Below, one piece after another: positions 5,243-21,394 of a stretch of DNA of 22,211 nt. Position numbers and translations under genes: made by a program. Source of the DNA: a virus; the IMG/VR virus record IMGVR_UViG_3300002460_000088, positions 356-22,566 of that record; one strand, 5' to 3'. A model generated the notes under the pieces. That model saw only the letters and a program-made list of their open reading frames with translations, was not told the DNA's origin and did no database searches. The stretch's first letter is position 1. The number at the start of each line of letters is the position of its first letter.

Positions 5243-5336
5243 AATATTGGTTGAAGTCGGATCTGTCACCAATACTATTTTAATCATAGTTATTGTTTTG
5301 CAAGTAGTTTCAATCCTATTCATTTGGTTTAAATGA
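5214..5336 (+). CDS. 40-aa single-TM protein
   Basis: Forty residues: a charged N-terminus (MNKKEKTTLEILVEVG) and one membrane helix (residues ~20-39, including TILIIVIVLQVVSILFIW). The ATG at 5214 lies inside the end of the upstream gene, and the stop overlaps the next ATG as ATGA (5333-5336). This coupling, together with similar tiny membrane genes at 8867 and 11046, supports it being real. Function unknown; a membrane anchor or adaptor for the following glycosyltransferase-like protein is one possibility. Confidence 0.6.
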   Translation: MNKKEKTTLEILVEVGSVTNTILIIVIVLQVVSILFIWFK

Positions 5337-6646
5337 ACGACGCTTATTTAGCTTATTGCAACGGCGACTATAGCCAAACTATTCAGCTGTTATTGCAATC
5401 ACCACCCCCAACTCCATCCCCCCAATGGGATATGTTACTAGCTAATACTTATTTAAAGATGAATCATACGGAAGCGGCTATAGAACGATTGCGCGGGATG
5501 TTACTAACCGCTATCTATGATGCGTCTAGTCAGGAGATAGGTAAAGAATACCAGCAAGTGTTGTCCGGTTTAGATACCCTAGCTAGACTTTCTATGATTG
5601 ATGCCCAATTCACAAAGCTTGCCCTTAGTGGTCAGCGGTTTGCTAGTCGAATCCAGGTTAAGGTAGAAAAAGAGGATGTCCTTGTTTTCCCGGCACTATG
5701 GCCAGTCGCTTTTGGGGACATCATTGTTTTTTTACAGTTGATTAAAAAATATGAAGAGGATTCCGGTAAGAAAGCGATCGTCATTATGCCACTTAATCGG
5801 CCCGAACTAAAATCATTAGCGGATCTATCGGGATTTATCGTTTTTGATGTCACTAGATTACCTGAAGAATCAAACCGTTTAAAAACAATTCGGCTGATCG
5901 ATCCTGAGTTAAAGGTATTTAATCTAGCGATTCAGGAGTGTATGATTCGTGAGATTTTGGAAATGCTTTCCAAACAAGTTAACTCTATGACTATCATCAA
6001 ATTACGTTATCTGCCTATCTTACGCGGGGTTTCTGTAACGGTTGGTAGTCGCCTTTGGGAAACCCGTGCCAAGTTGTGGCTGGCGGGGGAAGAGTTGCCA
6101 AAACTAGTGGCGCAAAAAGAAAAGAAGAAAAAAAAGATCACCCTGCATTTTAGAGAAGCGGATTACGCAGATCCATCACGAGATATTAACCCGAATTATC
6201 AACTTGATTTAGTTAAATCAATTAAAGATAAATACCCTGAGTACGAACTGGTTAAATTGGGTGACAAGAACATGACCACCATCCCCGGTACAACAGCCGC
6301 TCATAACCAAGACCTTAACCTGACTGAACAGATAAAGCATATCCAGGAATCCAGGCTCTTTATCGGCTCGCATTCCGCCGTTAAGGACTTGGCGGCCGCT
6401 TGCTCTGATACCCCTATCATAGTCCTCCAGCAAGCCCTCCAAGAAACAGCGACCCATAACGATCAGAGCATCGCCGCGCTGAGTTATCAGTGTTTGTCCA
6501 AACAATTAGTTAAAACGTTCTTTGTGAGGCAGTTTGATGCCTTAAACCAGCCGTTGTTGCCAACCCAAATGAATACAAAAAGGGTACGTTTTGAACCGGA
6601 ACCAATAGAAAACGTAATGGAGGCTATGGGGAGTGTCTTGGGATAA
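5333..6646 (+). CDS. TPR protein with GT9-like glycosyltransferase domain
   Basis: 437 residues. The N-terminal ~90 residues are TPR-like (AYLAYCNGDYSQTIQLLLQS; MLLANTYLKMNHTEAAIERL). From about residue 118 it looks like a GT-B glycosyltransferase of the ADP-heptose:LPS heptosyltransferase (GT9) type: ALWPVAFGDIIVFLQLIKKY at the first Rossmann half, then, after a Lys-rich linker, ITLHFREADY. The segment LNLTEQIKHIQESRLFIGSH with SAVKDLAAAC matches the conserved nucleotide-sugar end (residues ~330-365). Such proteins move an activated sugar onto a glycan acceptor. Similarity is by pattern only, so donor and acceptor are unknown and it could be non-catalytic. Confidence 0.6.
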   Translation: MNDAYLAYCNGDYSQTIQLLLQSPPPTPSPQWDMLLANTYLKMNHTEAAIERLRGMLLTAIYDASSQEIGKEYQQVLSGLDTLARLSMIDAQFTKLALSGQRFASRIQVKVEKEDVLVFPALWPVAFGDIIVFLQLIKKYEEDSGKKAIVIMPLNRPELKSLADLSGFIVFDVTRLPEESNRLKTIRLIDPELKVFNLAIQECMIREILEMLSKQVNSMTIIKLRYLPILRGVSVTVGSRLWETRAKLWLAGEELPKLVAQKEKKKKKITLHFREADYADPSRDINPNYQLDLVKSIKDKYPEYELVKLGDKNMTTIPGTTAAHNQDLNLTEQIKHIQESRLFIGSHSAVKDLAAACSDTPIIVLQQALQETATHNDQSIAALSYQCLSKQLVKTFFVRQFDALNQPLLPTQMNTKRVRFEPEPIENVMEAMGSVLG

Positions 6647-6861
6647 TGTTAATTCCTAACTATAATGATGCCGCTTGCTTGATTGATCGGCTTACAGTGG
6701 AGGGGGTGAAGTCGGCTCAGTTCGCTTTCGCCGAGGAAACCACTAAAGTGTCGTTCCAACAAAAGTTTTATCGTCAAGTGTTAGCCTCTAAATTGGAAGA
6801 AAAAATAAAGGAGTGGAAGAGTGGTTACAGGCCCTCCCTTGAGTACCGCACGTTTAGGTGA
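6646..6861 (+). CDS. Small helical protein, DUF4254-like pattern
   Basis: 71 residues starting in a TAATG overlap with the previous stop. The core ACLIDRLTVEGVKSAQFAF with a charged helical tail (SKLEEKIKEWKSGY) resembles small helical proteins found beside phage and bacterial glycosyltransferases, whose hallmark is an I-D-(R/K)-L-(T/S) segment followed by an acidic/basic helix pair. The DUF4254 link is a recollection of that pattern, not a search result. The next gene appears to be a distant relative. Function unknown. Confidence 0.45.
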   Translation: MLIPNYNDAACLIDRLTVEGVKSAQFAFAEETTKVSFQQKFYRQVLASKLEEKIKEWKSGYRPSLEYRTFR

Positions 6862-7069
6862 CGTGATCTTCGATCTAGCCGAAGCTAACGCCTTGGTGGG
6901 GTTATGGGATAACCTACGGCACGATCTTTGTAAAAAACCTTATCATGAACTTACGGAAAAAGAAAAAAATAAACTATATGAATCAGAAAAGAATAGCCGG
7001 TTTAATGTTGAGAAAAGAGCGAGATGCCGTTCTGAAATCAATCAACTTTTGGAGAAACTTTTTGGGTAA
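6821..7069 (+). CDS. Small helical protein, possible paralogue of its neighbour
   Basis: 82 residues from GTG at 6821, chosen because AAGGAG (6808-6813) sits 7 bp upstream; it overlaps the previous gene by 41 bp. The N-terminus STARLGDVIFDLAEANALVG resembles the I-D-R-L region of the protein before it, followed by charged helices (ELTEKEKNKLYESEKNSRF; CRSEINQLLEKLF). The DUF4254-like assignment is tentative. Two such proteins in tandem suggest a pair acting together with the surrounding glycosyltransferases. Confidence 0.5.
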   Translation: MVTGPPLSTARLGDVIFDLAEANALVGLWDNLRHDLCKKPYHELTEKEKNKLYESEKNSRFNVEKRARCRSEINQLLEKLFG

Positions 7070-7229
7070 ACGAGGGAGGCCAAAATTACCAGATGATAGG
7101 CATGTCCCGAAGATCATTTTATTTTCAAAGGCTGAGTTTGATTATATTAAAAAAGCCGCCAGTAATCACGGGTTCGTCAGTTTATCCGCTTATATTAGGG
7201 ATGTGCTGATGGGTCGGATACGGATATGA
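7062..7229 (+). CDS. Ribbon-helix-helix (CopG/Arc-type) protein, 55 aa
   Basis: The TTG at 7062 is chosen because GGAGA (7051-7055) sits at ideal distance and it overlaps the upstream stop by 8 bp, a spacing common here; longer in-frame ATG starts (6945, 7005) lack ribosome sites. The 55 residues start with a basic KRGRPKLPDD arm, then KIILFSKAEFDYIKKAA (beta-strand and helix A) and FVSLSAYIRDVLMGRI (helix B), the classic RHH layout of DNA-binding dimers. It could autoregulate the operon, perhaps through the palindrome at 4816. Its position in the middle of a biosynthetic operon is unusual. Confidence 0.6.
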   Translation: MGKRGRPKLPDDRHVPKIILFSKAEFDYIKKAASNHGFVSLSAYIRDVLMGRIRI

Positions 7230-8542
7230 ACGCTGGTATAGTTATCCAATGTCGTTACGACTCAGCCCGCCTCCCTGGCAAGATACTTAAATACATTGAT
7301 AAATACAATAAAAAGACCTGTTTAGAATATCTCATTGAGCGTTGTGGCGCAACAAAATACAACGTCATAATCGCCACGTCAGACAGAACCGTGGATGATC
7401 CTATAAGCGATGAGGTCGAAAAATTAAAAAGTAAGTATAAATGGCTTATTGGTTGTTACCGGGGCGAGTACCGCAACGTCGCCAAAAGGCTTTACATGGC
7501 TTCAGCAAAATATGATTGGGATACTATCATCAGGGTGACTGGTGATGATGTCTTTGTTGATCCTGATTTGATTAATTCTTTAGCCAAAGAAAAAGACTGT
7601 GATTATGCTTATTACCCGAATTTAATCCGAGGTGTTGACAGCGATTTAATCCGAGTCTCAGCTTTGGAAAGACTCATTCTCGAATACCCATCAGCAAACG
7701 AGCACTTGGACCATTTTTTTAGAGGCGGGGACTATAAAGTAAAAGGGGTAGAAACTCTTGGTAGTTTTCAGAAAAATATATCGTTATCCATAGATTATCC
7801 CATGGATTTAAAACTATGTCGGATTATTTTTGAAAATTTATATAATTACAATCCAGTGTTCAATACTTTTGATATACTTTTGTTTTTAACTAGAAATAAC
7901 GGTCTTTTGGATTTGAATCGAAAACCACGGGTGGGGGTCTATTTGGTATATAAGGATTACCCCTATTTTATAAAAGACAGCCTGCTCTCTCTCCAAGCTC
8001 AGACGGTTCAAACGGAGGTTGTTATATTGGATTATGGTTCGACTCTGGAAAATTATGGTTTACTCTGTTCACTGGCTGATAATTTTTCTGTAGTGAGAAA
8101 AGAATTGCCATCGTTTTTAGCTGCGGTTGAAGAGGCCCAGACCATGATCCATGGGGATTATGTCTTGCGCCTCGACGCTGATGATGTGCTGCGGCCAAGG
8201 CTTATTGAATTTATGGTTAAATATTTAGACGCAAACCCTCAATATTCGGCCGTAAGGTCGGGTTATTTTGTTAACGGGTCTACCGTTTTGGCTAAAAACA
8301 ATAATCTTTCTTGTCAAATGCTGGTTCGTCGTAAAGTCCTTGATTTTTTACGCTATTATGACGGCCAAAGTTATCGGGATGGAGTGACGTTCGAGGAAAC
8401 TTGCAAGAAATATGGTTTTAAAATTGGTGAAACGAATGAGATCCTTTTTCATCACAGAATACACGAAGGGAGCCTAACGCATGACAAACCTGATCTTGCT
8501 GAAACGGACGCCAGCATCCGCTCATTTGTATCTAACTCATGA
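7226..8542 (+). CDS. SpsF-like cytidylyltransferase fused to family-2 glycosyltransferase
   Basis: 438 residues, ATGA-coupled to the gene before it. Residues 1-~220 are a CMP-sugar-synthetase-type domain of the SpsF group: IVIQCRYDSARLPGKILKYI (nucleotide loop), IIATSDRTVDDPISDEVEKL, and TIIRVTGDDVFVDPDLI. Residues ~228-435 are a GT-A/GT2-like domain: PRVGVYLVYKDYPYFIKDSL, then VVILDYGST, and the DxD-type motif YVLRLDADDVLRPRLIEFM, with later HHRIHEGSLTHD. The fusion would make a nucleotide-activated sugar and transfer a sugar in one polypeptide. The second half lacks some canonical GT2 signatures at its start, so its donor is uncertain. Confidence 0.75.
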   Translation: MNAGIVIQCRYDSARLPGKILKYIDKYNKKTCLEYLIERCGATKYNVIIATSDRTVDDPISDEVEKLKSKYKWLIGCYRGEYRNVAKRLYMASAKYDWDTIIRVTGDDVFVDPDLINSLAKEKDCDYAYYPNLIRGVDSDLIRVSALERLILEYPSANEHLDHFFRGGDYKVKGVETLGSFQKNISLSIDYPMDLKLCRIIFENLYNYNPVFNTFDILLFLTRNNGLLDLNRKPRVGVYLVYKDYPYFIKDSLLSLQAQTVQTEVVILDYGSTLENYGLLCSLADNFSVVRKELPSFLAAVEEAQTMIHGDYVLRLDADDVLRPRLIEFMVKYLDANPQYSAVRSGYFVNGSTVLAKNNNLSCQMLVRRKVLDFLRYYDGQSYRDGVTFEETCKKYGFKIGETNEILFHHRIHEGSLTHDKPDLAETDASIRSFVSNS

Positions 8543-8888
8543 AAGCTACTTTGCGCTTGCCGCTAGAAATTCAATCAAAACGAACCAGCAACTTCTACTG
8601 GATTTTGAGGATGTGTTTACGGCTTTTGACGACTGGAAACCACAAAATGAGATTGAGAAAGAGGATATGATTACGGTTTGTGCGTCGTATGTGAATGAAG
8701 TCAGAGTCCGGATTTGGGACAGCCCAAACTTCCAAAACGTAGTTGAGTTAGCTGATTTATTGAAAAAGAAACTTAAAACAGTTCAGGCGATGTATGCCGT
8801 AACCAGCTTATTACGGCTGTTTGTTATCGCTCTAAAAGAAATAGAGAAGAGAGGAGCAACCCGGAAATGGCTCAAGCATTATCTGTAA
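8481..8888 (+). CDS. Hypothetical helical protein
   Basis: 135 residues, family not recognised. The start lies 62 bp inside the preceding gene; AAGGGA (8466-8471) is suitably placed and there is no later ATG before the protein core. The sequence looks helical: QLLLDFEDVFTAFDDWKPQN, then VVELADLLKKKLKTVQAMYA, and a hydrophobic stretch SLLRLFVIALKEIEKRG near the C-terminus. There are no catalytic motifs. It overlaps the next tiny membrane gene. Confidence 0.5.
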   Translation: MTNLILLKRTPASAHLYLTHESYFALAARNSIKTNQQLLLDFEDVFTAFDDWKPQNEIEKEDMITVCASYVNEVRVRIWDSPNFQNVVELADLLKKKLKTVQAMYAVTSLLRLFVIALKEIEKRGATRKWLKHYL

Positions 8889-8974
8889 TTGACTCTTTGT
8901 CGGTTTTCCAAGTCCTTGTTCCCGTGATTGTTTTTATGGTTATATTCGCTATTGCGATCCATAAAATAAAATGA
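8867..8974 (+). CDS. 35-aa single-TM protein
   Basis: Residues: a short N-terminus (MAQALSVIDSLS), one membrane helix (FQVLVPVIVFMVIFAIAI) and a basic end (HKIK). GAGGAG (8851-8856) serves as ribosome site, and the stop overlaps the next ATG as ATGA (8971-8974). Too small to recognise, but coupling and hydrophobicity match the tiny genes at 5214 and 11046. Confidence 0.6.
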   Translation: MAQALSVIDSLSVFQVLVPVIVFMVIFAIAIHKIK

Positions 8975-9576
8975 ATCTCGGATACCAGTTAGACGCCGAC
9001 GACCCTGACTTTGAGCGGTTAATCCACCTCATGGTTGGGCTGGGTTATGATTGTGTGGAGGTCTCAACTTCCAATCCAGTAAATTCTTTTAGCCATATCT
9101 GTCATGCGTCTGACATCATTAAAATAGCGGCACTTGGAACAGGGAGTTATTTTAGAAAACATGGCGATCATGATTTTTATAACAAGATGCTTCCCAAATA
9201 TATCACGATTTGCGATTTTGTGGACTGCCCGCTTATTTTCGGGGAAGCTTTAAGATTCCCGCTGATACTCAAACAACCAAAAGGAATTGATGTTTATTTA
9301 GAGTCTGGAATCGTTGAGAATTTTGAGAAAATAAAATCTGAATATATCTGGGCAAAAACACTATATGATACTTTTCATCAAAAAGGTGTAATCCCTGCTG
9401 ACGCCGAGTATGTTCAGATTTCGTCTTCAAAACGTGGCTTACCCTATAGTGAGCATCACGATTTTATTAAATCATACGAAGGGATTTTGGTTGGTGAAAT
9501 ATTCAATGAGCCAAATTTATCAGAAATGGAAAAAATTATTGAATTCAAAAAGATTGTGGATAATGCTAAAAAATAA
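8971..9576 (+). CDS. Possible TIM-barrel sugar enzyme
   Basis: 201 residues, family not firmly recognised. The start (LGYQLDADDPDFERLIHLMV followed by GLGYDCVEVSTSNP) looks like the first beta-alpha units of a TIM barrel such as NeuB-type synthases or sugar isomerases. HASDIIKIAALGTG resembles a later barrel strand (compare the K-I-A/G-S-G strand of NeuB proteins), and ILVGEIFNEPNLSEMEKIIE closes the protein. It is shorter than those families (usually 270-350 residues). It sits directly before the IolB-like and DAHPS-like genes, so a role in the same sugar pathway is inferred. Confidence 0.5.
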   Translation: MNLGYQLDADDPDFERLIHLMVGLGYDCVEVSTSNPVNSFSHICHASDIIKIAALGTGSYFRKHGDHDFYNKMLPKYITICDFVDCPLIFGEALRFPLILKQPKGIDVYLESGIVENFEKIKSEYIWAKTLYDTFHQKGVIPADAEYVQISSSKRGLPYSEHHDFIKSYEGILVGEIFNEPNLSEMEKIIEFKKIVDNAKK

Positions 9577-10246
9577 CATCGAGATCAAAAATATCTCTAA
9601 CCCAGGTCTAAAAATAAAGCCCAGGCGTTTGCTCAGCTCGACACATGAGATGGTTATCGTGCCGGTTCGTGGCAAAACAGAAGTCAAAACCGCCTCGGGT
9701 TTGCTGTTTATGTTGCGGCGGAATATATTAACAGAGGGGTCTGACGCTCTTTTCTTACCTATTTCGACTGATTTTGTTTTAAACATTTATCCCTTAGCGG
9801 AAGTAGCTATCGTTTTTGGTCGGACAGATAAAAAAAGCGAGATAAAGGTTATAAAACTATCTGAATCAACTTCTGTTGGAAAAGGTAATTATAGTCGCTC
9901 GGTGCGAATGATCTGCGGATCGGATGGACCAACAGATAGGCTGATTGTGGGTGAAACCATGAGCCCAGCAGGTAACTGGTCAAGCTGGCCCCCTCACCGT
10001 CATGACAATGAGACGGTGGACGAATCAGACCATGAAGAAGTGTACCTGTTTTACACCAAAAGCTGGGGGTTGATGCGTATCTACGACGGCAACGCTCAGC
10101 GTTTTGAGGCGGTTTATGACGGCAAGAAAGTGCGGATTGAGAAGGGCTACCACCCCGTTGTTGCCTCGCCTTTTTCTGATCTTTATTATTTATTTGCTCT
10201 GTATGGTAATCATAAAAATCTCAAACAGAAATTTTCTGAGATATGA
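9563..10246 (+). CDS. IolB/KduI-family isomerase (5-deoxy-glucuronate isomerase-like)
   Basis: 227 residues from the ATG at 9563 (14-bp overlap with the previous gene), somewhat shorter than typical IolB (about 270). The two-cupin signature is clear: GNWSSWPPHRHD (residues 138-148), HEEVYLFY (157-164), RIYDGNAQRFEAVYDGKKV, and KGYHPVVASPFSDLYYLFAL (194-213). H145, H147, E158/E159 and H197 are the likely metal ligands. IolB converts 5-deoxy-D-glucuronate to 5-dehydro-2-deoxy-D-gluconate in inositol catabolism; KduI acts on a related keto-uronate. No other inositol genes are here. Between a barrel-like protein and a DAHPS-like synthase it more likely isomerises a sugar acid or aldose precursor for glycan synthesis. 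Confidence 0.85.
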   Translation: MLKNNIEIKNISNPGLKIKPRRLLSSTHEMVIVPVRGKTEVKTASGLLFMLRRNILTEGSDALFLPISTDFVLNIYPLAEVAIVFGRTDKKSEIKVIKLSESTSVGKGNYSRSVRMICGSDGPTDRLIVGETMSPAGNWSSWPPHRHDNETVDESDHEEVYLFYTKSWGLMRIYDGNAQRFEAVYDGKKVRIEKGYHPVVASPFSDLYYLFALYGNHKNLKQKFSEI

Positions 10247-11049
10247 AAGAAATCACTAAAAAAGATCTAGCCGAGAATTTAAAACGTTGTGTAGCCTACG
10301 ACGGGAGTTGGTTTGATCGTTCCAAACCCTGGATCGCCGCCGGCCCCTGCGTGGTTGAATCCGAGGAAATGATTGATAAGATAGGGAAAGCGGTCATAAC
10401 GCTTGGAGCTACTGCTGTTCGTGGGGGATGTTTCAAGCCGTTAACCTTCCCAGATAAAAATATGACCAGGGCTGTGATTATCAACCGATTAAATTGGCTT
10501 AGAAAGCTAGCTTTTCCTGTTGTCACAGAAATCGGTCAATCGGTTGATATTAAGTTAATGGACAGGGTTGCGGTAGTCCAGATCGGCTATCGGCATATGT
10601 TCAACACTGATTTTATAGCGACGAATTTCCGTGAAAAAACTATACTAATTAAACGCCATCCTGGGGCTTCGCTGCGAGATCTGGCTGGCGTCTGCGAACA
10701 TTATCTTTCGAAATGGGTTAGAAAGATCATGGTCTGCGAGCGTGGCATCGTCGCCCCACACACCCATAACCCTAATGCTAGAGCGTTACCGGATATAACC
10801 GCTATCGCTTATTGGAAACGCTGGTTCCCACAGATCCCAATCATCTTTGATCCCTCGCATTCCACATTTAATCGAGACATTGTTATTGATATGGCCTTGG
10901 CCGCTATCGCCGCTGGTGCCGATGGGTTACTTGTTGATGTTCACCACCGGCGTACAGAGCCAGAAGTTGACCCGTTAAACGCTCTGGATTATTTTGAGTT
11001 TGAGTTATTGATGCAAAAAATTAATAAACTTTGGTCGGCGATACGATGA
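10243..11049 (+). CDS. DAHP/KDO8P synthase-family aldol synthase with altered aldose site
   Basis: 268 residues, ATGA-coupled to the IolB-like gene. It covers the core barrel of the type I-beta DAHPS/KDO8PS family: AAGPCVVES (32-40, with C36), VRGGCFKPLTFP (59-70), VVTEIGQ, QIGYRHMFN (113-121), ILIKRHPG (134-141), CERGI (165-169), DPSHST (203-208) and GADGLLVDVH (225-234). PEP contacts (K65, R117, K137, R167) appear kept. Two changes stand out: K-P-R-T of DAHPS is K-P-L-T here, removing the Arg that grips the erythrose-4-phosphate phosphate, and the metal-ligand Glu of I-E-V-H is Asp (D232). The usual KDO8PS A-N-R-S motif is also absent. It should condense PEP with a different aldose. Confidence 0.85.
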   Translation: MKEITKKDLAENLKRCVAYDGSWFDRSKPWIAAGPCVVESEEMIDKIGKAVITLGATAVRGGCFKPLTFPDKNMTRAVIINRLNWLRKLAFPVVTEIGQSVDIKLMDRVAVVQIGYRHMFNTDFIATNFREKTILIKRHPGASLRDLAGVCEHYLSKWVRKIMVCERGIVAPHTHNPNARALPDITAIAYWKRWFPQIPIIFDPSHSTFNRDIVIDMALAAIAAGADGLLVDVHHRRTEPEVDPLNALDYFEFELLMQKINKLWSAIR

Positions 11050-11204
11050 TTAAGGTGTTGGTTTATCTGCTTGTTTTGATTGTTTTTTTGGTGGGGGTTA
11101 AACTAAGCGAGGAATCTGACGGCGTACAAAACGCCTTTGTAATACTGGCCCTATTATGGCTTATTGCCGGGCTTTTAAAAGTCTTGAGCTGGATTGTATT
11201 TTGA
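11046..11204 (+). CDS. 52-aa two-TM protein
   Basis: ATGA overlap with the synthase stop (11046-11049). Residues ~3-18 (KVLVYLLVLIVFLVGV) and ~31-50 (FVILALLWLIAGLLKVLSWI) are hydrophobic helices joined by an acidic loop (SEESDG), so it is a small hairpin membrane protein. Function unknown. It is the third tiny membrane protein placed just before an enzyme gene in this operon. Confidence 0.65.
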   Translation: MIKVLVYLLVLIVFLVGVKLSEESDGVQNAFVILALLWLIAGLLKVLSWIVF

Positions 11205-11986
11205 GCGAATTCGCTTATAAGTACAAGTATGCCGTGATTATCCTAGCCCGAGGCGGGAGCAAGGAACTCCCACGTAAAAACCTGGCTCTTTTAGCTGGCA
11301 AACCGTTGTTGCAATGGGCTATTGATGACGCCAAGATGGCTGGTTTGAAAAAGATTTATGTGTCTACAGATGACGACGAGATCGCTTCTTTCGCAAAGTC
11401 TTGCGGGAGCAAGGTGATTAGAAGGCTCCCTCGCGAGGCTAATGATACTGCCACGACAGAGGATAGTATAAGGGTCACGGTTGATAGAATTGAGGGGATT
11501 AAAGGCTCACCGGATTACAAGTGGGATGAAATTGTGGAAGAGTTCACCATTGAAAATGAGTTATTGACTAATGAACTCATGACTTCGCCATATGATGGTT
11601 ACGTATTTTTGCAATGCACGGACCTTTTCCGAACCGAACAGATCATTGAGAGATGTATTCAGCATTTTGAATTAGACCCATACGTTGATTCCGTATTCGC
11701 GGTTAAACCGGTGTTCAAAAACTATTGGAGAGCCAAGGAGGAAGGTGCAATAAGTTCTCACAAGAGGCTTGCGTCAGACATCCCTTATGGGCCCAGGCAA
11801 ACCAGAGAACCTCTTTTTGAAGAATATACTGGTTTGTGTCTAGTTAGTAAGCCTTGGGTGTTTAAGCAAAGGCAACGGGTTGGGCACACTGTTGGGGTGG
11901 AGGTGGTTAAAAATAAATGTTTTGACATCCATAATCAGGATGACCTGGAAGAAGCGGAGAGGTGGTGGAGTAAAAATGGCAATTGA
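11201..11986 (+). CDS. CMP-sugar synthetase (NeuA/KdsB-like)
   Basis: About 261 residues. The nucleotide-binding loop ILARGGSKELPRKN stands at the N-terminus, followed by LLAGKPLLQWAIDDAK, YVSTDDDEIASFAKSCG, VFLQCTDLFRTEQII (family norm is L-Q-P-T-S-P-L-R), RQTREPLFEEYTGLCL and DIHNQDDLEEAERWW at the end. The enzyme activates a sugar acid with CTP, releasing pyrophosphate. I place the start at TTG 11201, which overlaps the previous stop; an in-frame ATG at 11156 would add 15 residues unlike the family and overlap the small membrane gene by 49 bp. With the synthase two genes upstream it makes a coherent make-then-activate pair. The changed L-Q-x-T-x-x-x-R loop suggests an unusual substrate. 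Confidence 0.8.
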   Translation: MSEFAYKYKYAVIILARGGSKELPRKNLALLAGKPLLQWAIDDAKMAGLKKIYVSTDDDEIASFAKSCGSKVIRRLPREANDTATTEDSIRVTVDRIEGIKGSPDYKWDEIVEEFTIENELLTNELMTSPYDGYVFLQCTDLFRTEQIIERCIQHFELDPYVDSVFAVKPVFKNYWRAKEEGAISSHKRLASDIPYGPRQTREPLFEEYTGLCLVSKPWVFKQRQRVGHTVGVEVVKNKCFDIHNQDDLEEAERWWSKNGN

Positions 11987-12602
11987 CATGACTCCAGATG
12001 AGTTGTTTTATTTCAATGATATATTGCAAAAGGGGATATATTTAAAAGAGAATGAAAAAAAATTATATCCGATTGAATTTCACCAATATATTGGCGGCTG
12101 GAATATTTACCAGCATCCTTTGCAGTTTGCGAAATTTTGCTCGTTTATGTCTGAGATTTTCATTAAATCATATGTTGAAATTGGTATCAAAATGGCCGGG
12201 ACATTTCGTTATATATCACAAGTGTTAAGAAGCAGAAATAACCAAAATTTAAAATGTTTTGGTATCGATATAAATATTCCTTTTTCTATAAGAGAGATTT
12301 TTGCAAACACCAATTCAAAATTAATTGAGCTTGATAGTCGCAAAGCTGGCGGATGCGTACCAGAAAATATTGGACTGGTCTTTATCGATGGGTCGCATAC
12401 TTATGAGTCCGTAAAATCAGATTGGGATATTTATGGCAAACGCTCTGAATGGGCTGCTTTCCATGATATAGTTAACCCTATGACACCAGGAGTGGTCCAA
12501 TTCTGGAACGAAATAAAACAGGATTATCTCTTTACTGAATTTATTGAGCAGTTCCCAGAGCATGAGCCCACGATGGGGATAGGGTTGTTGAAAATTGCTT
12601 GA
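11976..12602 (+). CDS. Class I SAM methyltransferase (Methyltransf_24-like)
   Basis: 208 residues from ATG 11976, with GGAG 5 bp upstream and an 11-bp overlap with the CMP-sugar synthetase. The motif I region SYVEIGIKMAGTFRYISQVL (a degenerate E-x-G-x-x-x-G) is followed by FGIDINIPFSIREIF, then VFIDGSHTYESVKSDWDIYG and AAFHDIV, the Asp/His arrangement of metal-dependent O-methyltransferase relatives that act on sugars or hydroxylated substrates. It probably methylates the glycan made here. Substrate unknown; similar in build to the next gene. Confidence 0.75.
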   Translation: MAIDMTPDELFYFNDILQKGIYLKENEKKLYPIEFHQYIGGWNIYQHPLQFAKFCSFMSEIFIKSYVEIGIKMAGTFRYISQVLRSRNNQNLKCFGIDINIPFSIREIFANTNSKLIELDSRKAGGCVPENIGLVFIDGSHTYESVKSDWDIYGKRSEWAAFHDIVNPMTPGVVQFWNEIKQDYLFTEFIEQFPEHEPTMGIGLLKIA

Positions 12603-13146
12603 AGTTATTGAGAAGATAAAACAGGGTCAGATGTTCGCCAAGAACGACCGTTGGGGTATGCTGGAATTTGCCTTGTCGCTGGTTAAAATTCCAGGGAATT
12701 ATATCGAGCTGGGAGTGTATAAAGGCGAGAGCCTAACCTGGATTGCTGAACGGATATTCCCTAATTTGGTTTGGGGGTTTGATTGGTATAAGGGTTTGCC
12801 TGAAGATTTGAAAGATAGTTGTCCCCAAGGGATGTTTTCACTTAACTACATCCCCAGTTTTCGGGCCCACAATATCCGTACCATTTCTGGTCCGATTGAG
12901 AAGACGACTCGTGAAATCTCTTTCCTCGATCCGATAATCTTTATCCACGTCGACTGTGACCTGTATAGCCCAACCAAAGCGGCTCTGGAACAACTTGAGT
13001 TAGGCAAAGGTGTTGTGATTATGTTTGACGAGCTGTACGGCTCAGAAGCCTACGATAAAAACGAGCTAAAAGCTTTGTCTGAATTTGATAAAGAATGGGA
13101 GCCAATGGCTTACTCAGACTCAAAAGCCGTGATTCGGTTAACATGA
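12595..13146 (+). CDS. TylF-like O-methyltransferase
   Basis: 183 residues. A TTG at 12595 overlaps the preceding stop by 8 bp and follows AGGG; an in-frame ATG at 12631 is an alternative. Motifs: NYIELGVYKGESLTWIAERI (motif I, E-x-G-x-x-x-G), WGFDWYKGLPEDL, then IFIHVDCDLYSPTKAALEQL and GVVIMFDELYG. This is the macrocin-O-methyltransferase (TylF) pattern, a Mg-dependent group that methylates deoxysugar hydroxyls. It shares fold and order with the previous gene, so the two may methylate different hydroxyls of one sugar. Confidence 0.8.
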   Translation: MLEVIEKIKQGQMFAKNDRWGMLEFALSLVKIPGNYIELGVYKGESLTWIAERIFPNLVWGFDWYKGLPEDLKDSCPQGMFSLNYIPSFRAHNIRTISGPIEKTTREISFLDPIIFIHVDCDLYSPTKAALEQLELGKGVVIMFDELYGSEAYDKNELKALSEFDKEWEPMAYSDSKAVIRLT

Positions 13147-14417
13147 TTCATCCTTCAGTTAAACCTCTAAAAGATTCCATTGAATCGATGCTGGTTTGGC
13201 GCAAAGAACGCATTCCTACGGTTTGTATTTGTGGTTGCGCTAGATGGGAGATCCTGGATCACATCCGACGGCCCTTGGTTGACTGCCATCTGGTCATCTG
13301 CCCAGACTGCGGGTTTGTTACCTATAGCCCACAGTTCCCTGATCTAGCAAGCTGGTATCGTGACCAAGTGCGTAGCCAATCGATTCATTTTCTGGAGACA
13401 AAAACCAATAAAGAATATAAACACGAGCGATTGTTGTTTAAGTGGCTCAAAGAGCTTGGCGTAAAGCCATTAGAGGTTTTGGATATTGGTTGCTCGGACG
13501 GTTATCTGCTAAAGATGATCCGGGAAAGATACAAAAGTCAGGTGACTGGAATTGAGGTTAATCCAGGGCATCGCAATTGGGGGAAGTATATGGATTGCTT
13601 AAACATCGTCCCAGACTTGAAGGAGCAGAAAGTCTTTGATTTGATCTGTTGCTACCATGTGTTTGAACACGTCCAGAGTCCGCTTGATTTTTTGATGTGG
13701 ATTACCAGATCGCTGACCGATGGTGGTTATCTGTATCTGGCTCTTCCTACCCTTAATCGAGTGCTGGATAACCCGGTTATTGAAGTGTTTTTCAAAGATG
13801 AACATATCAATTGGTTTACAGACGATTATCTAGTCGCATTACTGACATCTGTAGGCTTCAAGGTTGAGTTTATTGATAAGAAGCTATACGGCACAGCCAT
13901 GTTGATTAAAAAAGTGAACTGTGAAGGCGTAAGGCCCAAACTGTACACCCAGAACAGAGAGTTAATCGAGCGGCTAGGGCAAGCTTATGCGGTGAAGCGT
14001 CAAGCGGATTCGGTAGGAAATGACCGGGATAAGGTAAGGCAAATGTTGCAAGGGTCTTATAATTTATTCCCGAGGTTCCCGCATCTCATTATTCAGTATG
14101 CGGAAACGCTGGATTCGGTTGATAAAGAAGATTTGTTAATTGAATATCATAAAAACAACCCCGATATGTGGGAAATCAAGAACCAGCTGGCTCATCATTA
14201 TTATAAACAGAATAGTTTGGACAAGGCCAAACAGTTGTTCCTTGAACTTATTGACGAATTAGGGCCGCTGGAGGGAACTGTAACCAACCTGGCTTTTATC
14301 GATTACCGGGAGGGGCGGAAGATGGAGGCTATCCAGCGGTTATCACCAATAATTGACTCCATGCCCTGGAAGGTGAACCTGTTCAATATCCTCGCTAGCT
14401 GGGTTGCTGAACTCTAA
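13143..14417 (+). CDS. Zn-ribbon/SAM methyltransferase with C-terminal TPR
   Basis: 424 residues from the ATG at 13143 (ATGA overlap). Residues ~18-60 hold CICGC and CPDCGFVTYSP, a four-cysteine zinc ribbon seen at the start of C-methyltransferase-type proteins. The SAM domain has VLDIGCSDGYLLKMIRERY (motif I), VTGIEVNPGHRN, DLICCYHVFEHVQSPLDFLM and GGYLYLALPTL. The C-terminal ~130 residues are TPR-like (NQLAHHYYKQNSLDKAKQLF; NLAFIDYREGRKMEAIQRL), echoing the TPR of the protein at 5333. It is the last gene of the operon, just before the terminator, and probably methylates the glycan or its precursor. Confidence 0.8.
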   Translation: MIHPSVKPLKDSIESMLVWRKERIPTVCICGCARWEILDHIRRPLVDCHLVICPDCGFVTYSPQFPDLASWYRDQVRSQSIHFLETKTNKEYKHERLLFKWLKELGVKPLEVLDIGCSDGYLLKMIRERYKSQVTGIEVNPGHRNWGKYMDCLNIVPDLKEQKVFDLICCYHVFEHVQSPLDFLMWITRSLTDGGYLYLALPTLNRVLDNPVIEVFFKDEHINWFTDDYLVALLTSVGFKVEFIDKKLYGTAMLIKKVNCEGVRPKLYTQNRELIERLGQAYAVKRQADSVGNDRDKVRQMLQGSYNLFPRFPHLIIQYAETLDSVDKEDLLIEYHKNNPDMWEIKNQLAHHYYKQNSLDKAKQLFLELIDELGPLEGTVTNLAFIDYREGRKMEAIQRLSPIIDSMPWKVNLFNILASWVAEL

Positions 14418-14420
14418 AAA

Positions 14421-14469
14421 GAAGGGCACCATTGTTTTTGGGGGAAAAGGGGAATGATGCCCTTTTTTT
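14421..14469 (+). terminator. Bidirectional terminator ending the glycan operon
   Basis: GGGCACCATT (14424-14433) pairs with AATGATGCCC (14453-14462), apart from a mismatch near the middle, and is followed by TTTTTTT (14463-14469). On the other strand the hairpin is followed by TTCTTTTTAG, so it can also stop leftward transcription from the KilA-N operon. Confidence 0.85.
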
Positions 14470-15655: not shown

Positions 15656-15701
15656 CCTGTTTTGGTTTATTATAAATAAAAAAAGAATTATTGTAAACAG
15701 G
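15656..15701. promoter_or_regulatory. Inverted repeat flanking the KilA-N promoter
   Basis: CCTGTTT (15656-15662) and AAACAGG (15695-15701) form a 7-bp inverted repeat. One arm sits at the predicted transcription start and the other over the -35 box, a layout suited to a repressor that bridges the promoter. Short, so tentative. Confidence 0.3.
15669..15697 (-). promoter_or_regulatory. Promoter of the KilA-N operon
   Basis: On the minus strand TTTACA (15697-15692), a 17-bp spacer, and a perfect TATAAT (15674-15669). The start would fall near 15662, about 23 bases before the ATG at 15639. It uses the same boxes and spacing as the replication promoter at 19244-19272. Confidence 0.75.
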
Positions 15702-17135: not shown

Positions 17136-18275
17136 TTATTTTTCGTTAAATTGGTTTATATCCGAGTTATATTCTAATTTAATCGTTTTCAAAAAGTTAT
17201 TTTTTGATCTATTTTTTGCAACCTCGCAATGTGTTAATTCTTTTTGCCCTGTCATGGGTCTTGATAAAAGAAAAATAACATCAGCTTCCTCCTCAAGTGA
17301 ACCAGAACCCTTTAAATTATACGTTTTTGGGGATTTATCATCGGTTGTTCTGTTCAGTTGGGCGTTGCAAAAGATGGGGGTTTGGTGTTCTATACAAAGC
17401 AATTTAAGTTTCCTGGCGACATGAGTAAATCTGGAATACTCAGTGTCACCCTCATCACTGGTTATTTTATTAAATTGATCAATATAAATCGCCTTATATT
17501 TATTCGATGCCATTGTTCTGGAGAGCATATTGAGTGTTAGTTTTCTAGGCGTAGAGATAAATAAATTGTCATGGTTAAAAAATGGGCCGTAGTGAGTTAG
17601 TTTGCGTTTTATTTGAGAAGCAGACATTTCCATGCTCAAATATAATATTTTACCAACTCTCGAATTATTCATTGCAAGCTGGCATGAAAAAGTAGTCTTT
17701 CCAACAAATGCTCTGGCAGCAATAATAATTAACATATTTGGCTCTACAACAACTGAATTATCAATCGATTGGAACCCTGTTCTTAACCCAACATCCTGAA
17801 TTTTATCTAAACTTATTTCAGAGACGGCTAACCCGGAAATCGCGTCAGTAAACTGATCTTCATTTTTTGTAACGATTCGTTTCATTTCCTCTATTTTTGA
17901 TTCCAGAGTTAACAAAGCCTGATTATGTCCTAAGTTGTTTAAATCATGTATAAATTCACGTTCTAGTTTTTTTTGTTTGATACTCTGGTACATATACAGG
18001 GCCTGTGAAAGTTGCCAAGGAATGATGGTGTCACAAATAATATCTAATAGATGGTCCAGGTTTTCTTTACCCATGGATAACCGATACTTATTCCAAATAT
18101 TTAAACCAGCTGTATCTCGCAATTCATCATAATCGATTGTCCGCATCGCGTTGATAATCATCCAGGCATCATCCGTAAAATCCTGATTTGTTAAATCATC
18201 AAACAGATGAACGTAAGACGGGTTTCTAAATAAACAGTTCATAAAATATTCTTCATCAACCGTTGTTTTAAGCAT
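17136..18275 (-). CDS. dnaB: DnaB-like replicative helicase
   Basis: 379 residues from the ATG at 18275, which overlaps the upstream stop by 8 bp; an earlier in-frame start at 18341 lies inside the previous gene. The N-terminal part (YFMNCLFRNPSYVHLFDDL) resembles the DnaB N-domain. The RecA-like core has Walker A ARAFVGKTTFSCQLAMN, Walker B YKAIYIDQFNKI, and IFCNAQLNRTTDDK with GSGSLEEEADVIFLLSRP, the helicase motif 3/4 region. It would unwind DNA at the phage fork as a hexamer. The upstream initiator gene probably loads it. The Walker A loop is A-x-x-x-V-G-K-T rather than the common S-M-G-K-T, a minor variation. Confidence 0.9.
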   Translation of the reverse strand: MLKTTVDEEYFMNCLFRNPSYVHLFDDLTNQDFTDDAWMIINAMRTIDYDELRDTAGLNIWNKYRLSMGKENLDHLLDIICDTIIPWQLSQALYMYQSIKQKKLEREFIHDLNNLGHNQALLTLESKIEEMKRIVTKNEDQFTDAISGLAVSEISLDKIQDVGLRTGFQSIDNSVVVEPNMLIIIAARAFVGKTTFSCQLAMNNSRVGKILYLSMEMSASQIKRKLTHYGPFFNHDNLFISTPRKLTLNMLSRTMASNKYKAIYIDQFNKITSDEGDTEYSRFTHVARKLKLLCIEHQTPIFCNAQLNRTTDDKSPKTYNLKGSGSLEEEADVIFLLSRPMTGQKELTHCEVAKNRSKNNFLKTIKLEYNSDINQFNEK

Positions 18276-19038
18276 CTTCCGGCTCCACAGCGTTAAGGTT
18301 ACGATAACCCATGCGCTCATCGTAAGCTTTTTCCGAATCATACTCTAGCCAAGTATCCCAATCTTTGAACCAGCGACTGGATAATTGAATAAAACCGTTG
18401 GTGTAACGTTCAGAACTTTTATAGTTTTTCAGCGCAACAACTATATCTCCGGCAGAATGCCCATTGTTGGTAATCTTGGAAAATAATTCTTGGCACCATT
18501 GTTTTTTATCTCGGCGCTCCGCCGGATATTGGGACCATAAGTCAAGAAACTCCGTTGTATAGTTTATTTGTTTTCCCTTACTTGCTGGTTTTTTCTTTTG
18601 GTTTGATTCTAAATTAGTTTTTTGATCATCCACCTCCCCCACTTGTTGGGGGAATATAGGGGGTGTATTTTCTTTTTCTTTTTGGTTTACTTTTTCTTTT
18701 ATATTATCTAATATAATATTATCTAATATAATATAATCTGCTCCGTCAGAATGACTGTCGGTTTTACTATCTGGTCTGTCCTCTGGTCTGTCCTCAGACT
18801 TTTTAGATGTATAATGAGTACGAGCTGTTTTTCTATGGGTTTTTACAGAATTTATATCCGCCTGAATAAACTCTAATTCGTTTAAAGGATCAATATTATA
18901 ATCATTTTTTGTTGTAAAAATTGGGGGCAATTGTTCATACTGGGCGCATAACGCCCTGATTCTCAATCGAGCAATCAATTCAGAATCCGCGCAACCCGGA
19001 AACAACAACTCATTGATATCCACCTTAAACCAATTCAT
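18268..19038 (-). CDS. Phage replication initiator/helicase loader
   Basis: 256 residues from the ATG at 19038, ATGA-coupled to the HTH gene. The N-terminus (MNWFKVDINELLFP) and helical part to residue ~70 suit a DNA-binding replisome organiser. A long polar linker (residues ~80-160) is rich in Asp/Lys/Arg and contains the DNA repeats of the candidate origin. The C-terminal FLDLWSQYPAERRDKKQWCQ and FIQLSSRWFKDWDTWLEY match the conserved end of phage helicase-loader proteins. It likely binds the repeats in its own gene and brings in the downstream helicase, as lambda O does. The exact family is not certain. Confidence 0.7.
   Translation of the reverse strand: MNWFKVDINELLFPGCADSELIARLRIRALCAQYEQLPPIFTTKNDYNIDPLNELEFIQADINSVKTHRKTARTHYTSKKSEDRPEDRPDSKTDSHSDGADYIILDNIILDNIKEKVNQKEKENTPPIFPQQVGEVDDQKTNLESNQKKKPASKGKQINYTTEFLDLWSQYPAERRDKKQWCQELFSKITNNGHSAGDIVVALKNYKSSERYTNGFIQLSSRWFKDWDTWLEYDSEKAYDERMGYRNLNAVEPEDA
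18660..18793. repeat. Candidate replication origin (tandem repeats inside the initiator gene)
   Basis: Within the linker-coding part of the initiator gene lie two exact 15-bp tandem copies of ATATTATCTAATATA (18701-18715, 18716-18730) with a degenerate third, flanked on the left by a T/C-rich tract (18666-18700) and on the right by two exact 12-bp copies of TCTGGTCTGTCC (18770-18781, 18782-18793). An AT-rich melting element beside iteron-like repeats in the initiator gene is the lambda-type origin layout. The 15- and 12-bp periods keep the reading frame, so simple coding repeats are the alternative. Confidence 0.45.
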
Positions 19039-19226
19039 GATTCCTTGCTCCACATTTTTCGATTAACAAAATTTACCTTTTTTTGATAAAATCCTTTCCC
19101 TTTACTCAACCCTAATTTTTTGGCGTAATAGTTAATACATGTTCGGGACACTCCTAATTTATCGCCTAAAGACTGAGCCGTATTTTTAAAAAACATCTCT
19201 TCAAATTCTTTCGTTGTAATCTTCAT
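19035..19226 (-). CDS. Small HTH DNA-binding protein
   Basis: 63 residues with AAAGGAGG just before the ATG. A helix-turn-helix is visible at residues ~17-40: AQSLGDKLGVSRTCINYYAK, ending in KLGLSKGKG. The C-terminus is basic. It is the first gene after the promoter at 19244 and is ATGA-coupled to the initiator, so it may autoregulate the replication operon. Similar small HTH proteins act as Cro-like or excisionase-like regulators; which of these applies cannot be told. Confidence 0.7.
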   Translation of the reverse strand: MKITTKEFEEMFFKNTAQSLGDKLGVSRTCINYYAKKLGLSKGKGFYQKKVNFVNRKMWSKES

Positions 19227-19243
19227 TTTAACCTCCTTTCATG

Positions 19244-19272
19244 ATTATATCTGATCTTTTCTATTCTGTAAA
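19244..19272 (-). promoter_or_regulatory. Promoter of the replication operon
   Basis: On the minus strand TTTACA (19272-19267), a 17-bp spacer, and a perfect TATAAT (19249-19244). Transcription would start near 19237, leaving a very short leader that contains the GGAGG ribosome site (19232-19239 region). The terminator of the preceding operon ends directly upstream. Confidence 0.75.
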
Positions 19273-19368
19273 AAACAAAACATAGAGCCGGGGACTGTTG
19301 TGACTTGGTTAGAGTTATCCCCGGCTGTATATTCCCATAAATAATAAATTGAAACCCAGGTCACAACA
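19273..19368 (-). terminator. Terminator with a possible pseudoknot at the end of the recombination operon
   Basis: On the minus strand AGCCGGGGA (19326-19318) pairs with TCCCCGGCT (19294-19286) and is followed by CTATGTTTTGTTTTTT, a plausible terminator although the loop is long (23 nt). The loop contains CCAAGTCACAACA (19308-19296), which can pair over 13 bp (one G-U) with TGTTGTGACCTGG (19368-19356) upstream of the hairpin. The order A, B, A', B' is that of a pseudoknot. The stop of the upstream small gene (19315-19317) lies in the loop, so ribosomes could influence folding. Confidence 0.6.
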
Positions 19369-19531
19369 ATCCCATCCTACATCATAATCCAATCGTTGTA
19401 AATAGCGTTTCACCTTTTCAGTTATTCGATATTTTCGAATATCTGTTCTTGATTTTTCGTCGTAAACGAATATTAGTAAATATCCCCCTCCCCCCTAGTT
19501 GCTTCGCCTCAAGACCGAACGTACCAAACAT
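19315..19531 (-). pseudogene. Small gene with a frame break at a G-run
   Basis: An ATG at 19531, 3 bp after the previous stop, opens a frame (MFGTFGLEAKQLGG) that runs into a G-rich tract (GGGGGGAGGGGG on the minus strand, 19495-19484). Continuing in the frame shifted by +1 gives a protein-like sequence (YLLIFVYDEKSRTDIRKYRI; KVKRYLQRLDYDVGWDCC; LLFMGIYSRG) to a TAA at 19315-19317, about 72 residues in all. Without the shift the frame ends after ~37 residues. Possible causes are a sequencing error in the run, a real mutation, or frameshifting/slippage. Family not recognised. Confidence 0.5.
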
Positions 19532-19534
19532 TGG

Positions 19535-19642
19535 CTATATTTTCCTTTGTAGGATCGTGTTTAAAAAATTAGAATTATCTATTGGTCTCATACTATCAAT
19601 TAATATTTCTAACTCATGTCTACAATCTGGTGACTTGTTCAT
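19535..19642 (-). CDS. 35-aa hypothetical protein
   Basis: ATGA overlap with the preceding stop (19639-19642). Residues: MNKSPDCRHELEILIDSMRP followed by a polar/hydrophobic end with TILQRKI. The coupling supports translation. No function can be suggested. Confidence 0.4.
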   Translation of the reverse strand: MNKSPDCRHELEILIDSMRPIDNSNFLNTILQRKI

Positions 19643-19920
19643 AAAACCTTAGAAGCGATTCTAGCACGTAACGCATCCCTTCTTATTCGTTTTTGCTCAT
19701 CGGTCAGATTCGATTGTCTTTTTTTACCCCATCTGAAGATTTTTTTATCAACCAAAAAACTCCAACTGGATTCAACGCCTTTGTTATTTATAGCTACTTT
19801 ATCCAGCTTCCAGCCATATCTTTTGCAACGATTAGCGACGGTGCCATCTCGTGTAAATATAGAAACGGATTGTTCGCCGCAATTAAAGTTTATCGTGGTC
19901 TCTTTTTCAAATAAATTCAT
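19639..19920 (-). CDS. Conserved small phage protein
   Basis: 93 residues with a ribosome site near its start. The opening KETTINFNCGEQSVSIFTRD and the end KKRQSNLTDEQKRIRRDAL follow the pattern of a small protein common in phages of Firmicutes, with an E-T-T-I-x-F-N start, a strand-rich middle and a Lys/Arg-rich tail after W-x-x-x-x-x-x-K. Its function there is unknown. It overlaps the YqaJ gene by 4 bp. Confidence 0.6.
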   Translation of the reverse strand: MNLFEKETTINFNCGEQSVSIFTRDGTVANRCKRYGWKLDKVAINNKGVESSWSFLVDKKIFRWGKKRQSNLTDEQKRIRRDALRARIASKVL

Positions 19921-20519
19921 AATTTTGACTCCTTTTTGATCTTTTTCGGTTCACGTTTTCCCTGCACACACTCCCAAAACTCCCGTAGGATTGGCAACGC
20001 CCAAACCCACCATTCTTTGTCCCGTCTAACCCTAATCTTAAAAAACCAATCCGTGCCAACGATCTGATTCCTGGCATTGATTTCAGGGGACCAGGCAAAG
20101 AAGTCACACCATCCCCTGCCCATCACCTCCATCTGCCCTTGCATCTGAGCAAAATACATCGGTTTAACCAAATCAATCTCAATCATAGGACACTTAATTT
20201 CAACCAATCCTTTACCGCTATAATCTTCTACAAGGCCATCAGGGGAGGCACCAAGCCATTTTTCTACAGAATGGATATGAAACCCTGTATCTTCTATCAA
20301 AATTCCGCTTTGGACTTCGTAGGATTGTTTAGCGAATGATTCTAACTTCTCCCCTCTTTTGGTAAACTCGTTACCTTCAAACGCTGGCTCAAGGCCTGTT
20401 AGTTGTCTCCATAACTTTTGCCTCGACTGATAGGGGTTGAGGCCGAGAGCGGTGCCGAAGTTGGAAGCGGTTAGACAGGTCTTGCGTGACTCAAACCACT
20501 CTTCGGTGCGTTGCTTCAT
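19917..20519 (-). CDS. YqaJ-family exonuclease (viral recombinase)
   Basis: 200 residues. The N-terminus RTEEWFESRKTCLTASNFGT and ALGLNPYQS is the YqaJ/lambda-exonuclease signature. The catalytic core follows with LGASPDGLVEDYSGKGLVEI and the metal-binding V-E-I-K-C-P, then MYFAQMQGQMEVMG. These proteins degrade the 5' strand at DNA ends, giving 3' tails for an annealing protein. The partner is probably the DUF1071-type protein encoded in the same operon (21987), giving a Red-alpha/beta-like pair. It is ATGA-coupled to the membrane gene before it, unlike the usual direct adjacency of the pair. Confidence 0.88.
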   Translation of the reverse strand: MKQRTEEWFESRKTCLTASNFGTALGLNPYQSRQKLWRQLTGLEPAFEGNEFTKRGEKLESFAKQSYEVQSGILIEDTGFHIHSVEKWLGASPDGLVEDYSGKGLVEIKCPMIEIDLVKPMYFAQMQGQMEVMGRGWCDFFAWSPEINARNQIVGTDWFFKIRVRRDKEWWVWALPILREFWECVQGKREPKKIKKESKL

Positions 20520-20785
20520 CGATTTAGCTCCTCTTTAACATGCCTATAAAACTGACAAACACTATATTTACTTTTAGCATAAAGACGTGGCATAAGAGTT
20601 AAGTAAAGTCCTATAAAAATGATTAAATTAACAAATGGCATAAAGCTGCATAGATAAAGCGCACATTCCTCGTGATGGGGTTTAAACTCATCGTATTTTT
20701 TACCAATGAAAATAAGAAAATATAAATTATTTAATAAAACAATAAAATGAATAACTATCATCCAAAGTATCGTTGATACCGTCAT
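20516..20785 (-). CDS. Two-TM membrane protein
   Basis: 89 residues, family not recognised. Hydrophobic helices at about 4-28 (STILWMIVIHFIVLLNNLYF) and 43-66 (YLCSFMPFVNLIIFIGLYL) are separated by a charged loop with two His (KPHHEEC), and followed by a basic tail. The stop overlaps the start of the YqaJ gene as ATGA. A membrane protein between an annealing protein and an exonuclease is unexpected. Confidence 0.6.
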   Translation of the reverse strand: MTVSTILWMIVIHFIVLLNNLYFLIFIGKKYDEFKPHHEECALYLCSFMPFVNLIIFIGLYLTLMPRLYAKSKYSVCQFYRHVKEELNR

Positions 20786-20798
20786 TATTACCCCTTTT

Positions 20799-21200
20799 CT
20801 ATTTTACTAATTTTGAAAAAAACTCAATCAAATAAATTTTGGGCGCAATCAAAACGTACAAAAAATCAACCATATTCGCATAAGCAATAACACATATCTT
20901 AACCATACTAAATCCATAACCGGCGCTAATCATAAGAAAAACAATCCATAATGCGACTGATATATCTTTATTTTCTGTTTTATATCTATTAACAAACGTG
21001 TAAAGCTTCAATAACAACAAAGACAAAACAATACCAAGAACAATAAACAGTAGAGCAGTAAACCCAAATATGACCGCTTTAAACCGAAGGAACTGGAAGG
21101 CTATATCTGGGACCTCTTTTAGCAACAACTCAACTCCTTTTGTCACACCATTAGACGCTACATCCATAACGTTTGCCATTGATTTGGTTAGTTCGTCCAT
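20799..21200 (-). CDS. Multi-TM membrane protein
   Basis: 133 residues with AAGGAA near the start. The N-terminal ~35 residues are amphipathic (KSMANVMDVASNGVTKGVEL), followed by membrane helices at about 42-68 (VIFGFTALLFIVLGIVLSLL), 80-100 (ISVALWIVFLMISAGYG) and a third at 103-125 (VKICVIAYANMVDFLYVLI). Family not recognised. It overlaps the 68-aa gene before it by 13 bp; the two may form one membrane complex. Confidence 0.6.
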   Translation of the reverse strand: MDELTKSMANVMDVASNGVTKGVELLLKEVPDIAFQFLRFKAVIFGFTALLFIVLGIVLSLLLLKLYTFVNRYKTENKDISVALWIVFLMISAGYGFSMVKICVIAYANMVDFLYVLIAPKIYLIEFFSKLVK

Positions 21201-21394
21201 ATTTTTGATTCCTTCATTTTTTTATTAAATAGACTTTTTATATCTCTCACAATTTCCGGTGTATACTTGACAACCAATGCCGTCCCTAAAATAACCGTAG
21301 CGATTTGAATCACCGAATCAACCGCTGGTTTTTGTTGCGGAACAGCAAAAGTAAAACTAAAAACCAATAGTCCCATAATGATATATTTATTCAT
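21188..21394 (-). CDS. Small exported/membrane protein
   Basis: 68 residues, GGAG 8 bp before the ATG. The N-terminus MNKYIIMGLLVFSFTFAVPQ looks like a signal peptide or membrane helix with a possible cleavage after FAV, and a second hydrophobic stretch lies at ~28-44 (VIQIATVILGTALVVKY). The C-terminus is basic (IKSLFNKKMKESK). The layout suits a small phage membrane protein. Function unknown. Confidence 0.6.
   Translation of the reverse strand: MNKYIIMGLLVFSFTFAVPQQKPAVDSVIQIATVILGTALVVKYTPEIVRDIKSLFNKKMKESKIWTN

Follow-up and report, generated by a model that had tools for sequence, protein, structure and literature searches.

The DNA analysed here, a stretch of 22,211 nt that we call the window, is part of a virus record of 38,556 bases. 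Its minus-strand genes run in the order Sak annealing protein, three small hydrophobic ORFs, YqaJ exonuclease, a 93-residue orphan, the junction discussed below, an HTH-like protein, an initiator-like protein and DnaB (Table 1). The junction, with both of its inverted repeats, is a gap of 412 nt (19227-19638) between the gene that ends at 19639 and the one that starts at 19226. The three hydrophobic ORFs (20516-21394, minus strand) separate the annealing protein from the exonuclease, an odd location for membrane proteins. On the plus strand, positions 5333-14417 form a large block that by eye resembles what we take to be sugar-nucleotide, glycosyl- and methyltransferase genes. No tRNA genes were found.

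Table 1. Features of the junction and its surroundings, listed along the minus strand.
Feature	Coordinates	Strand	Remarks
Sak SSAP (annealing protein) gene		minus	recombination gene group, first in minus-strand gene order
YqaJ-type exonuclease	19917-20519	minus	PF09588, E 9.3e-23
93-aa orphan protein	19639-19920	minus	last clear gene ahead of the junction
59-codon stop-to-stop frame	19315-19494	minus	ends in the putative terminator loop; unlikely to be a gene in its present form
Hairpin P0	19419-19445	minus	10 pairs; z -5.07, 0/200 shuffles
Strand C	19391-19412	minus	pairs with 19371-19350 as hairpin P1; rival of B for B'
Weak promoter-like match TTTACA-17-TAGGAT	19374-19402	minus	9/12; would start RNA near B', without C
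Strand B'	19356-19368	minus	upstream partner of B; extended form reaches 19373
Putative terminator 5' arm, A'	19318-19326	minus	AGCCGGGGA; extends to 19333
Putative terminator loop	19295-19317	minus	23 nt, or 21 nt if U-G pair 19317:19295 forms; holds strand B and TAA 19317-19315
Strand B	19296-19308	minus	within the loop; extended form reaches 19291, inside the 3' arm
Putative terminator 3' arm, A	19286-19294	minus	UCCCCGGCU; extends to 19279
U-tract	19270-19280	minus	TTTTGTTTTTT; 3' of the stem
Promoter-like match TTTACA-17-TATAAT	19244-19272	minus	11/12; ahead of HTH/replication genes; -35 overlaps the U-tract
63-aa HTH-like protein	19035-19226	minus	first gene past the junction; weak match, E 0.019
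Replication initiation-like protein	18268-19053	minus	phrog_270, E 1.5e-4
DnaB-type helicase	17136-18341	minus	PF03796, E 1.9e-30
Promoter-like match TTTACA-17-TATAAT	15669-15697	minus	11/12; ahead of the KilA-N gene at 15697
Second terminator-like hairpin (control)	14423-14463	minus	11 bp, 19-nt C-rich loop, U-rich tail

The recombination genes very probably end, on the minus strand, in an intrinsic terminator at an operon boundary. Such an element fits between the recombination and replication groups, since there is a GC-rich stem of 9 bp that can lengthen to 15 pairs, a U-tract and a promoter match behind it. The arms of the 9-bp core are exact (9/9 paired), and in full the stem is a 16-nt inverted repeat (19279-19294/19318-19333, 88%) in which 15 of the 16 positions pair on minus-strand RNA. 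The hairpin (19279-19333, minus strand) has a computed stability of -21.4 kcal/mol and a z-score of -5.76, which none of 200 shuffles matched. The U-tract begins five nt past the core, and its first two bases are taken up by the extended stem. Long stems with a U-rich tail are scarce: a census of both strands of the 22 kb found three places, all on the minus strand, namely this hairpin, one that closes the same leftward gene block (14463-14423) and one among the rightward genes (2112-2090), and eight of ten one-strand shuffles gave none. The downstream match TTTACA-17-TATAAT is, as a consensus match alone, likely to be the promoter of the HTH and replication genes, and together with the identical match ahead of the KilA-N gene it perhaps represents the early promoters of the phage; consensus matches of at least 9/12 are no commoner in the window than in its shuffles (22 versus 22.7).

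With intrinsic (Rho-independent) terminators the hairpin shares the GC-rich stem, the U-tract and the position at an operon boundary. It differs from them in that its loop is complementary to upstream RNA and has 21-23 nt instead of the usual 3-8 nt, and a scan for short-loop terminators had no match here. Intrinsic terminators tolerate large loops, a short loop being the usual rather than a strict criterion. The second terminator-like hairpin, which closes the leftward early block and faces the end of the rightward block, serves as a control in this respect: complementarity of its loop to upstream RNA was equalled by 389 of 1000 shuffles with 74 nt of upstream sequence and by 299 of 1000 with 150 nt. 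Its 19-nt loop is thus without an upstream partner, indicating that a large loop occurs in this phage without a pseudoknot.

Strand B, in the loop of the putative terminator, pairs with the upstream strand B'. As DNA, 12 of the 13 positions of the B core pair (19296-19308/19356-19368), and the full form is an 18-nt inverted repeat (19291-19308/19356-19373, 89%) with 47 nt between its arms and 17 of 18 positions paired on minus-strand RNA. An earlier note on this DNA had described a 13-bp and a 9-bp pair, the former with one G-U. Both pairs are present and both prove longer, at 18 and 16 nt; the G-U exists on plus-strand RNA, whereas on RNA of the minus strand, the one with the U-tract, the same position is a C-A mismatch, which leaves 12 pairs in the core and 17 in the 18-nt form. 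Its A-B-A'-B' order of arms is borne out by their coordinates, and we also find the U-rich run it placed on the minus strand (19280-19270), the stop codon in the loop, and the replication promoter that it saw as adjoining, whose -35 TTTACA runs from 19272 inside the U-tract. The arms of the two repeats overlap at 19291-19294, so that the full-length stems compete over 4 nt and the cores (9 and 13) can coexist. The same note held that such interleaved stems are unlikely by chance. This is upheld within the gap, where none of 1000 shuffles of 19227-19638 contained stems of 9/9 and at least 12/13 interleaved within 100 nt, and it is weakened by the whole window, 50 of whose 2000 dinucleotide shuffles (3 of 200 in a smaller run) did contain such a pair. 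In 89 other loci (862 kb; median GC 0.55 versus 0.40 in the window, and one of them, L004, from the same phage) there was no real match, compared with four in 5 x 89 shuffles, and a looser criterion (9+9 exact, 110 nt) was satisfied in 25 of 200 window shuffles. Interleaved stems by chance are therefore rare, not impossible. The duplex between loop and upstream strand (-18.4 kcal/mol) was equalled in 8 of 2000 upstream shuffles and, when the test was repeated, in 6 of 1000 with 74 nt and 1 of 1000 with 150 nt. These shuffle figures favour a real feature, though the site was chosen because it looked odd.

New beyond the earlier note is a third strand, C, that competes for B'. The target of C, 19371-19350, takes in most of B' and gives the junction a three-way layout. 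Hairpin P1, formed by this pairing, has a z-score of -3.15 (2/200 shuffles), and 6 of 2000 shuffles of the 60 nt upstream gave a C:B' duplex as good, the test range (19349-19373) having been set after the fold was seen. P1 is far stabler on minus-strand than on plus-strand RNA (-18.2 versus -6.5 kcal/mol), which fits transcription in the same direction as the genes. Hairpin P0, further upstream, is also a DNA palindrome, TATTCGA-TATTT-TCGAATA (19423-19441), present as a single copy in the window, and it is possible that it serves as an operator as well as an RNA hairpin.

It is a substantial, if on balance doubtful, possibility that the terminator is simply a constitutive one with a large loop and that its upstream complementarity is a coincidence without a role. 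The interleaved pairs found somewhere in 50 of the 2000 window shuffles allow for this, as do the other early-block terminator, whose 19-nt loop has no upstream partner, and the consensus promoter match that the replication genes have of their own. However, two separate matches, B:B' (8/2000) and C:B' (6/2000), converge on one strand, which speaks against it. A role at the level of DNA rather than RNA, as an operator pair, a recombination site or a small insertion, is suggested by the 18-nt inverted repeat with its 47 nt between the arms, and we regard it as close to negligible. The arm has no other exact copy in the window or in L004 and a single match with one mismatch (L004:9824-9836), its matches at up to three mismatches are near chance (12 versus 8.2 expected and 5 versus 6.4), no flanking direct duplication is visible by eye, and the U-tract and the strand asymmetry of P1 point to RNA.

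How the three pairings would share the RNA was predicted by nested folding, which is unable to show stems A and B at once. For RNAs starting at 19445, 19410 and 19640 the terminator forms, with P(A) of 1.00, 0.84 and 0.95, and in the read-through RNA it does so together with C:B'. For six starts from 19402 to 19373 it is B:B' that forms, with P(B) of 0.96-1.00, and for starts at 19369 and 19366 the terminator returns (P(A) 1.00). A pseudoknot is thus not required by the model, since the read-through RNA is predicted to hold B' by means of C, outside the terminator. In the RNA starting at 19373 the nested B fold amounts to -30.0 kcal/mol, and a pseudoknot, estimated from helix energies of the same parameters and an assumed penalty of 7-12, to -30.6 to -35.6 kcal/mol with A extended or -26.1 to -31.1 kcal/mol with the A core. 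Since the range with A extended overlaps the nested value, B:B' may be no obstacle to the terminator; it might replace the terminator or join it as a pseudoknot of comparable estimated stability. The A and B cores do not overlap, and the linkers of 29, 9 and 1 nt should permit both, since B and A would together make up an unbroken strand of 23 nt facing B' and A'. For the region as a whole, the fold of 19445-19272 has a z-score of -4.09 (0/200 shuffles), its end point having been picked after the P0 palindrome was seen; that of 19272-19420 has -2.59 (3/200) and that of 19265-19400 has -1.66 (11/200), and among 436 fixed-grid windows of 150 nt the region comes only 14th by fold z-score.

The predicted behaviour of the shorter RNAs would also suit a small phage RNA in its own right, about 95-100 nt long, that starts from the weak promoter at 19402-19374, is ended by the terminator and has its 5' B' folded into the loop. 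The promoter-like match is placed to start an RNA near B', and for the 19373 start the pseudoknot estimate equals or betters the nested fold. We nevertheless consider this quite unlikely, as the match is only 9/12, a quality frequent by chance (5 found versus a mean of 3.7 in shuffles), and as the window contains no Rfam family at the gathering score and chance-level matches alone below it. As identities for such an RNA we considered, from presumed likeness, a P4-type immunity RNA, on which nothing specific was found in the literature searched, and a CRISPR-repeat mimic, since the junction may resemble type II CRISPR repeats; no match to such a mimic was found in Rfam. With the RNA anti-CRISPRs (Racr), as described in PMC10651486, the junction shares a predicted promoter that may be followed by a short phage RNA, and it differs from that description in that no solitary CRISPR repeat was recognised.

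Another reading links the stems to translation, in that a small gene running through C, B' and A' would stop in the loop and its ribosomes would choose the stem. The 59-codon frame that spans these strands, with its TAA in the loop, is what recommends it. However, the only internal ATG lies 7 codons ahead of the end and none lies near the start, and the codon score of the frame (0.011, from training on 21 ORFs hand-picked as likely genes) falls at the 2nd percentile for in-frame pieces (n = 153) and amid the bulk of the out-of-frame ones (n = 765), 45% of which score as high or higher. No clear homologue was found in phages (best E 5), plasmids or Pfam, and matches in PHROG are weak (E 0.035 and 0.21). 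A small gene ending in the loop was rejected as the main explanation for want of codon signal and homologues, and control by its translation is very unlikely. Two more small frames precede this one (19418-19534 and 19535-19648). A G-rich stretch, GGGGGGAGGGGG (19484-19496, minus strand), lies between two overlapping small open frames and may mark a shift site, stem from a sequencing slip or be there by chance; a frame shift in it would join the two.

Relatives of the junction were absent from the viral-contig, genome-contig, phage and plasmid collections searched, which may leave out records close to that of the window. In the viral contigs, the exonuclease query retrieved two distant loci, the DNA pattern 64, Sak 13 and the terminase 5, and queries with the initiator, the helicase, the 93-residue protein and the HTH protein retrieved none; the genome contigs had no locus with the DNA pattern and none with the terminase. 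In the 80 nt that follow the pattern at its 64 loci, CCCCGG occurs in three and GTCACAA in none. A tblastn comparison of 14 window proteins with 84 loci found, besides Sak (15 loci, counted apart from the other 13 proteins), YqaJ alone, in two loci (L002 and L003). Megablast and blastn against phages gave no match, and against plasmids one 27-nt chance match (E 0.8). Four annotated phages, chosen among 12 listed of 144 records that match the exonuclease, have differing gene orders. No title or abstract opening found in the literature names an interleaved terminator/antiterminator layout, and we do not claim that it is absent from print.

The layout has partial counterparts among known attenuators. 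In trp-type leader attenuators, strands pair as 1:2, 2:3 or 3:4. Alternative pairings also operate in PyrR/TRAP-type leaders, according to PMC7430163. The junction shares with leader attenuators three alternative pairings that have one strand in common, and it differs in two ways: its strand order is interleaved, the 2:3 loop enclosing the terminator 5' arm, and it is located between gene groups. The pT181 attenuator, as described in PMC4878617 and PMC5703833, combines a 5' hairpin containing an antiterminator strand with a terminator and precedes replication genes, and the repC/repR attenuators of pT181 and pIP501 have in common with the junction a predicted 5' hairpin (here C:B') that holds the antiterminator strand, a competing terminator and downstream replication genes. 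These likenesses speak for an attenuator of that kind, in which an antisense RNA acting on the 5' hairpin would determine whether a terminator or an antiterminator forms before the replication genes. Yet the partner of B' is the loop plus four nt of the 3' arm rather than, as in the pT181 type, the terminator 5' arm, the 11/12 promoter match of the replication genes comes after the terminator, and the plus strand facing P1 offers no convincing antisense promoter, its 9/12 match at 19360-19388 being at chance level. Such an attenuator is thus highly improbable here, and since one defining pairing, antiterminator with 5' arm, was tested and not found, we do not place the junction in the pT181 family.

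The best explanation, to which we give a probability of about 0.43, is a terminator with three competing pairings that may be switchable. From complementarities present in the sequence and preferred folds that are computed, we infer termination, switching and any signal for it. Pairing of A' with A, followed by the U-tract, would stop transcripts of the recombination genes just ahead of the promoter of the replication genes. The terminator loop would carry B, whose complement B' lies some 50 nt upstream, and B' would double as the 3' arm of the C hairpin. Pairing of C with B' would leave the terminator free, whereas the extended form of B':B would invade four nt of its 3' arm. In the read-through RNA the default would be C:B' together with the terminator, and according to the folding model termination is the likely outcome. 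If C:B' were opened, or if the RNA began after C, B' could pair with B and either weaken the terminator or form a pseudoknot with it.

That the alternative fold works and affects termination is, on the model, somewhat short of an even chance, and a switch under regulation is possible. What makes a switch plausible is that nested folding sets B:B' against both the terminator and the C strand, yet little would be gained by regulated read-through, as the downstream genes seem to own a promoter. The idea in the earlier note of a regulated terminator or RNA switch between the operons accordingly keeps the anatomy of a terminator and competing folds on its side and is weakened by a pseudoknot that is not required and by the promoter match of the replication genes. 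A more specific scheme, in which the antiterminator captures the terminator loop and interleaves with it as a pseudoknot, and in which the upstream hairpin arms or disarms it according to the transcript start, so that recombination-gene RNA would terminate and local RNA would read into the replication genes, appears unlikely. If the terminator alone is real, the junction is an ordinary operon boundary. If the switch works, RNA folding would by itself couple expression of the recombination and replication genes, the signal being where the transcript starts.
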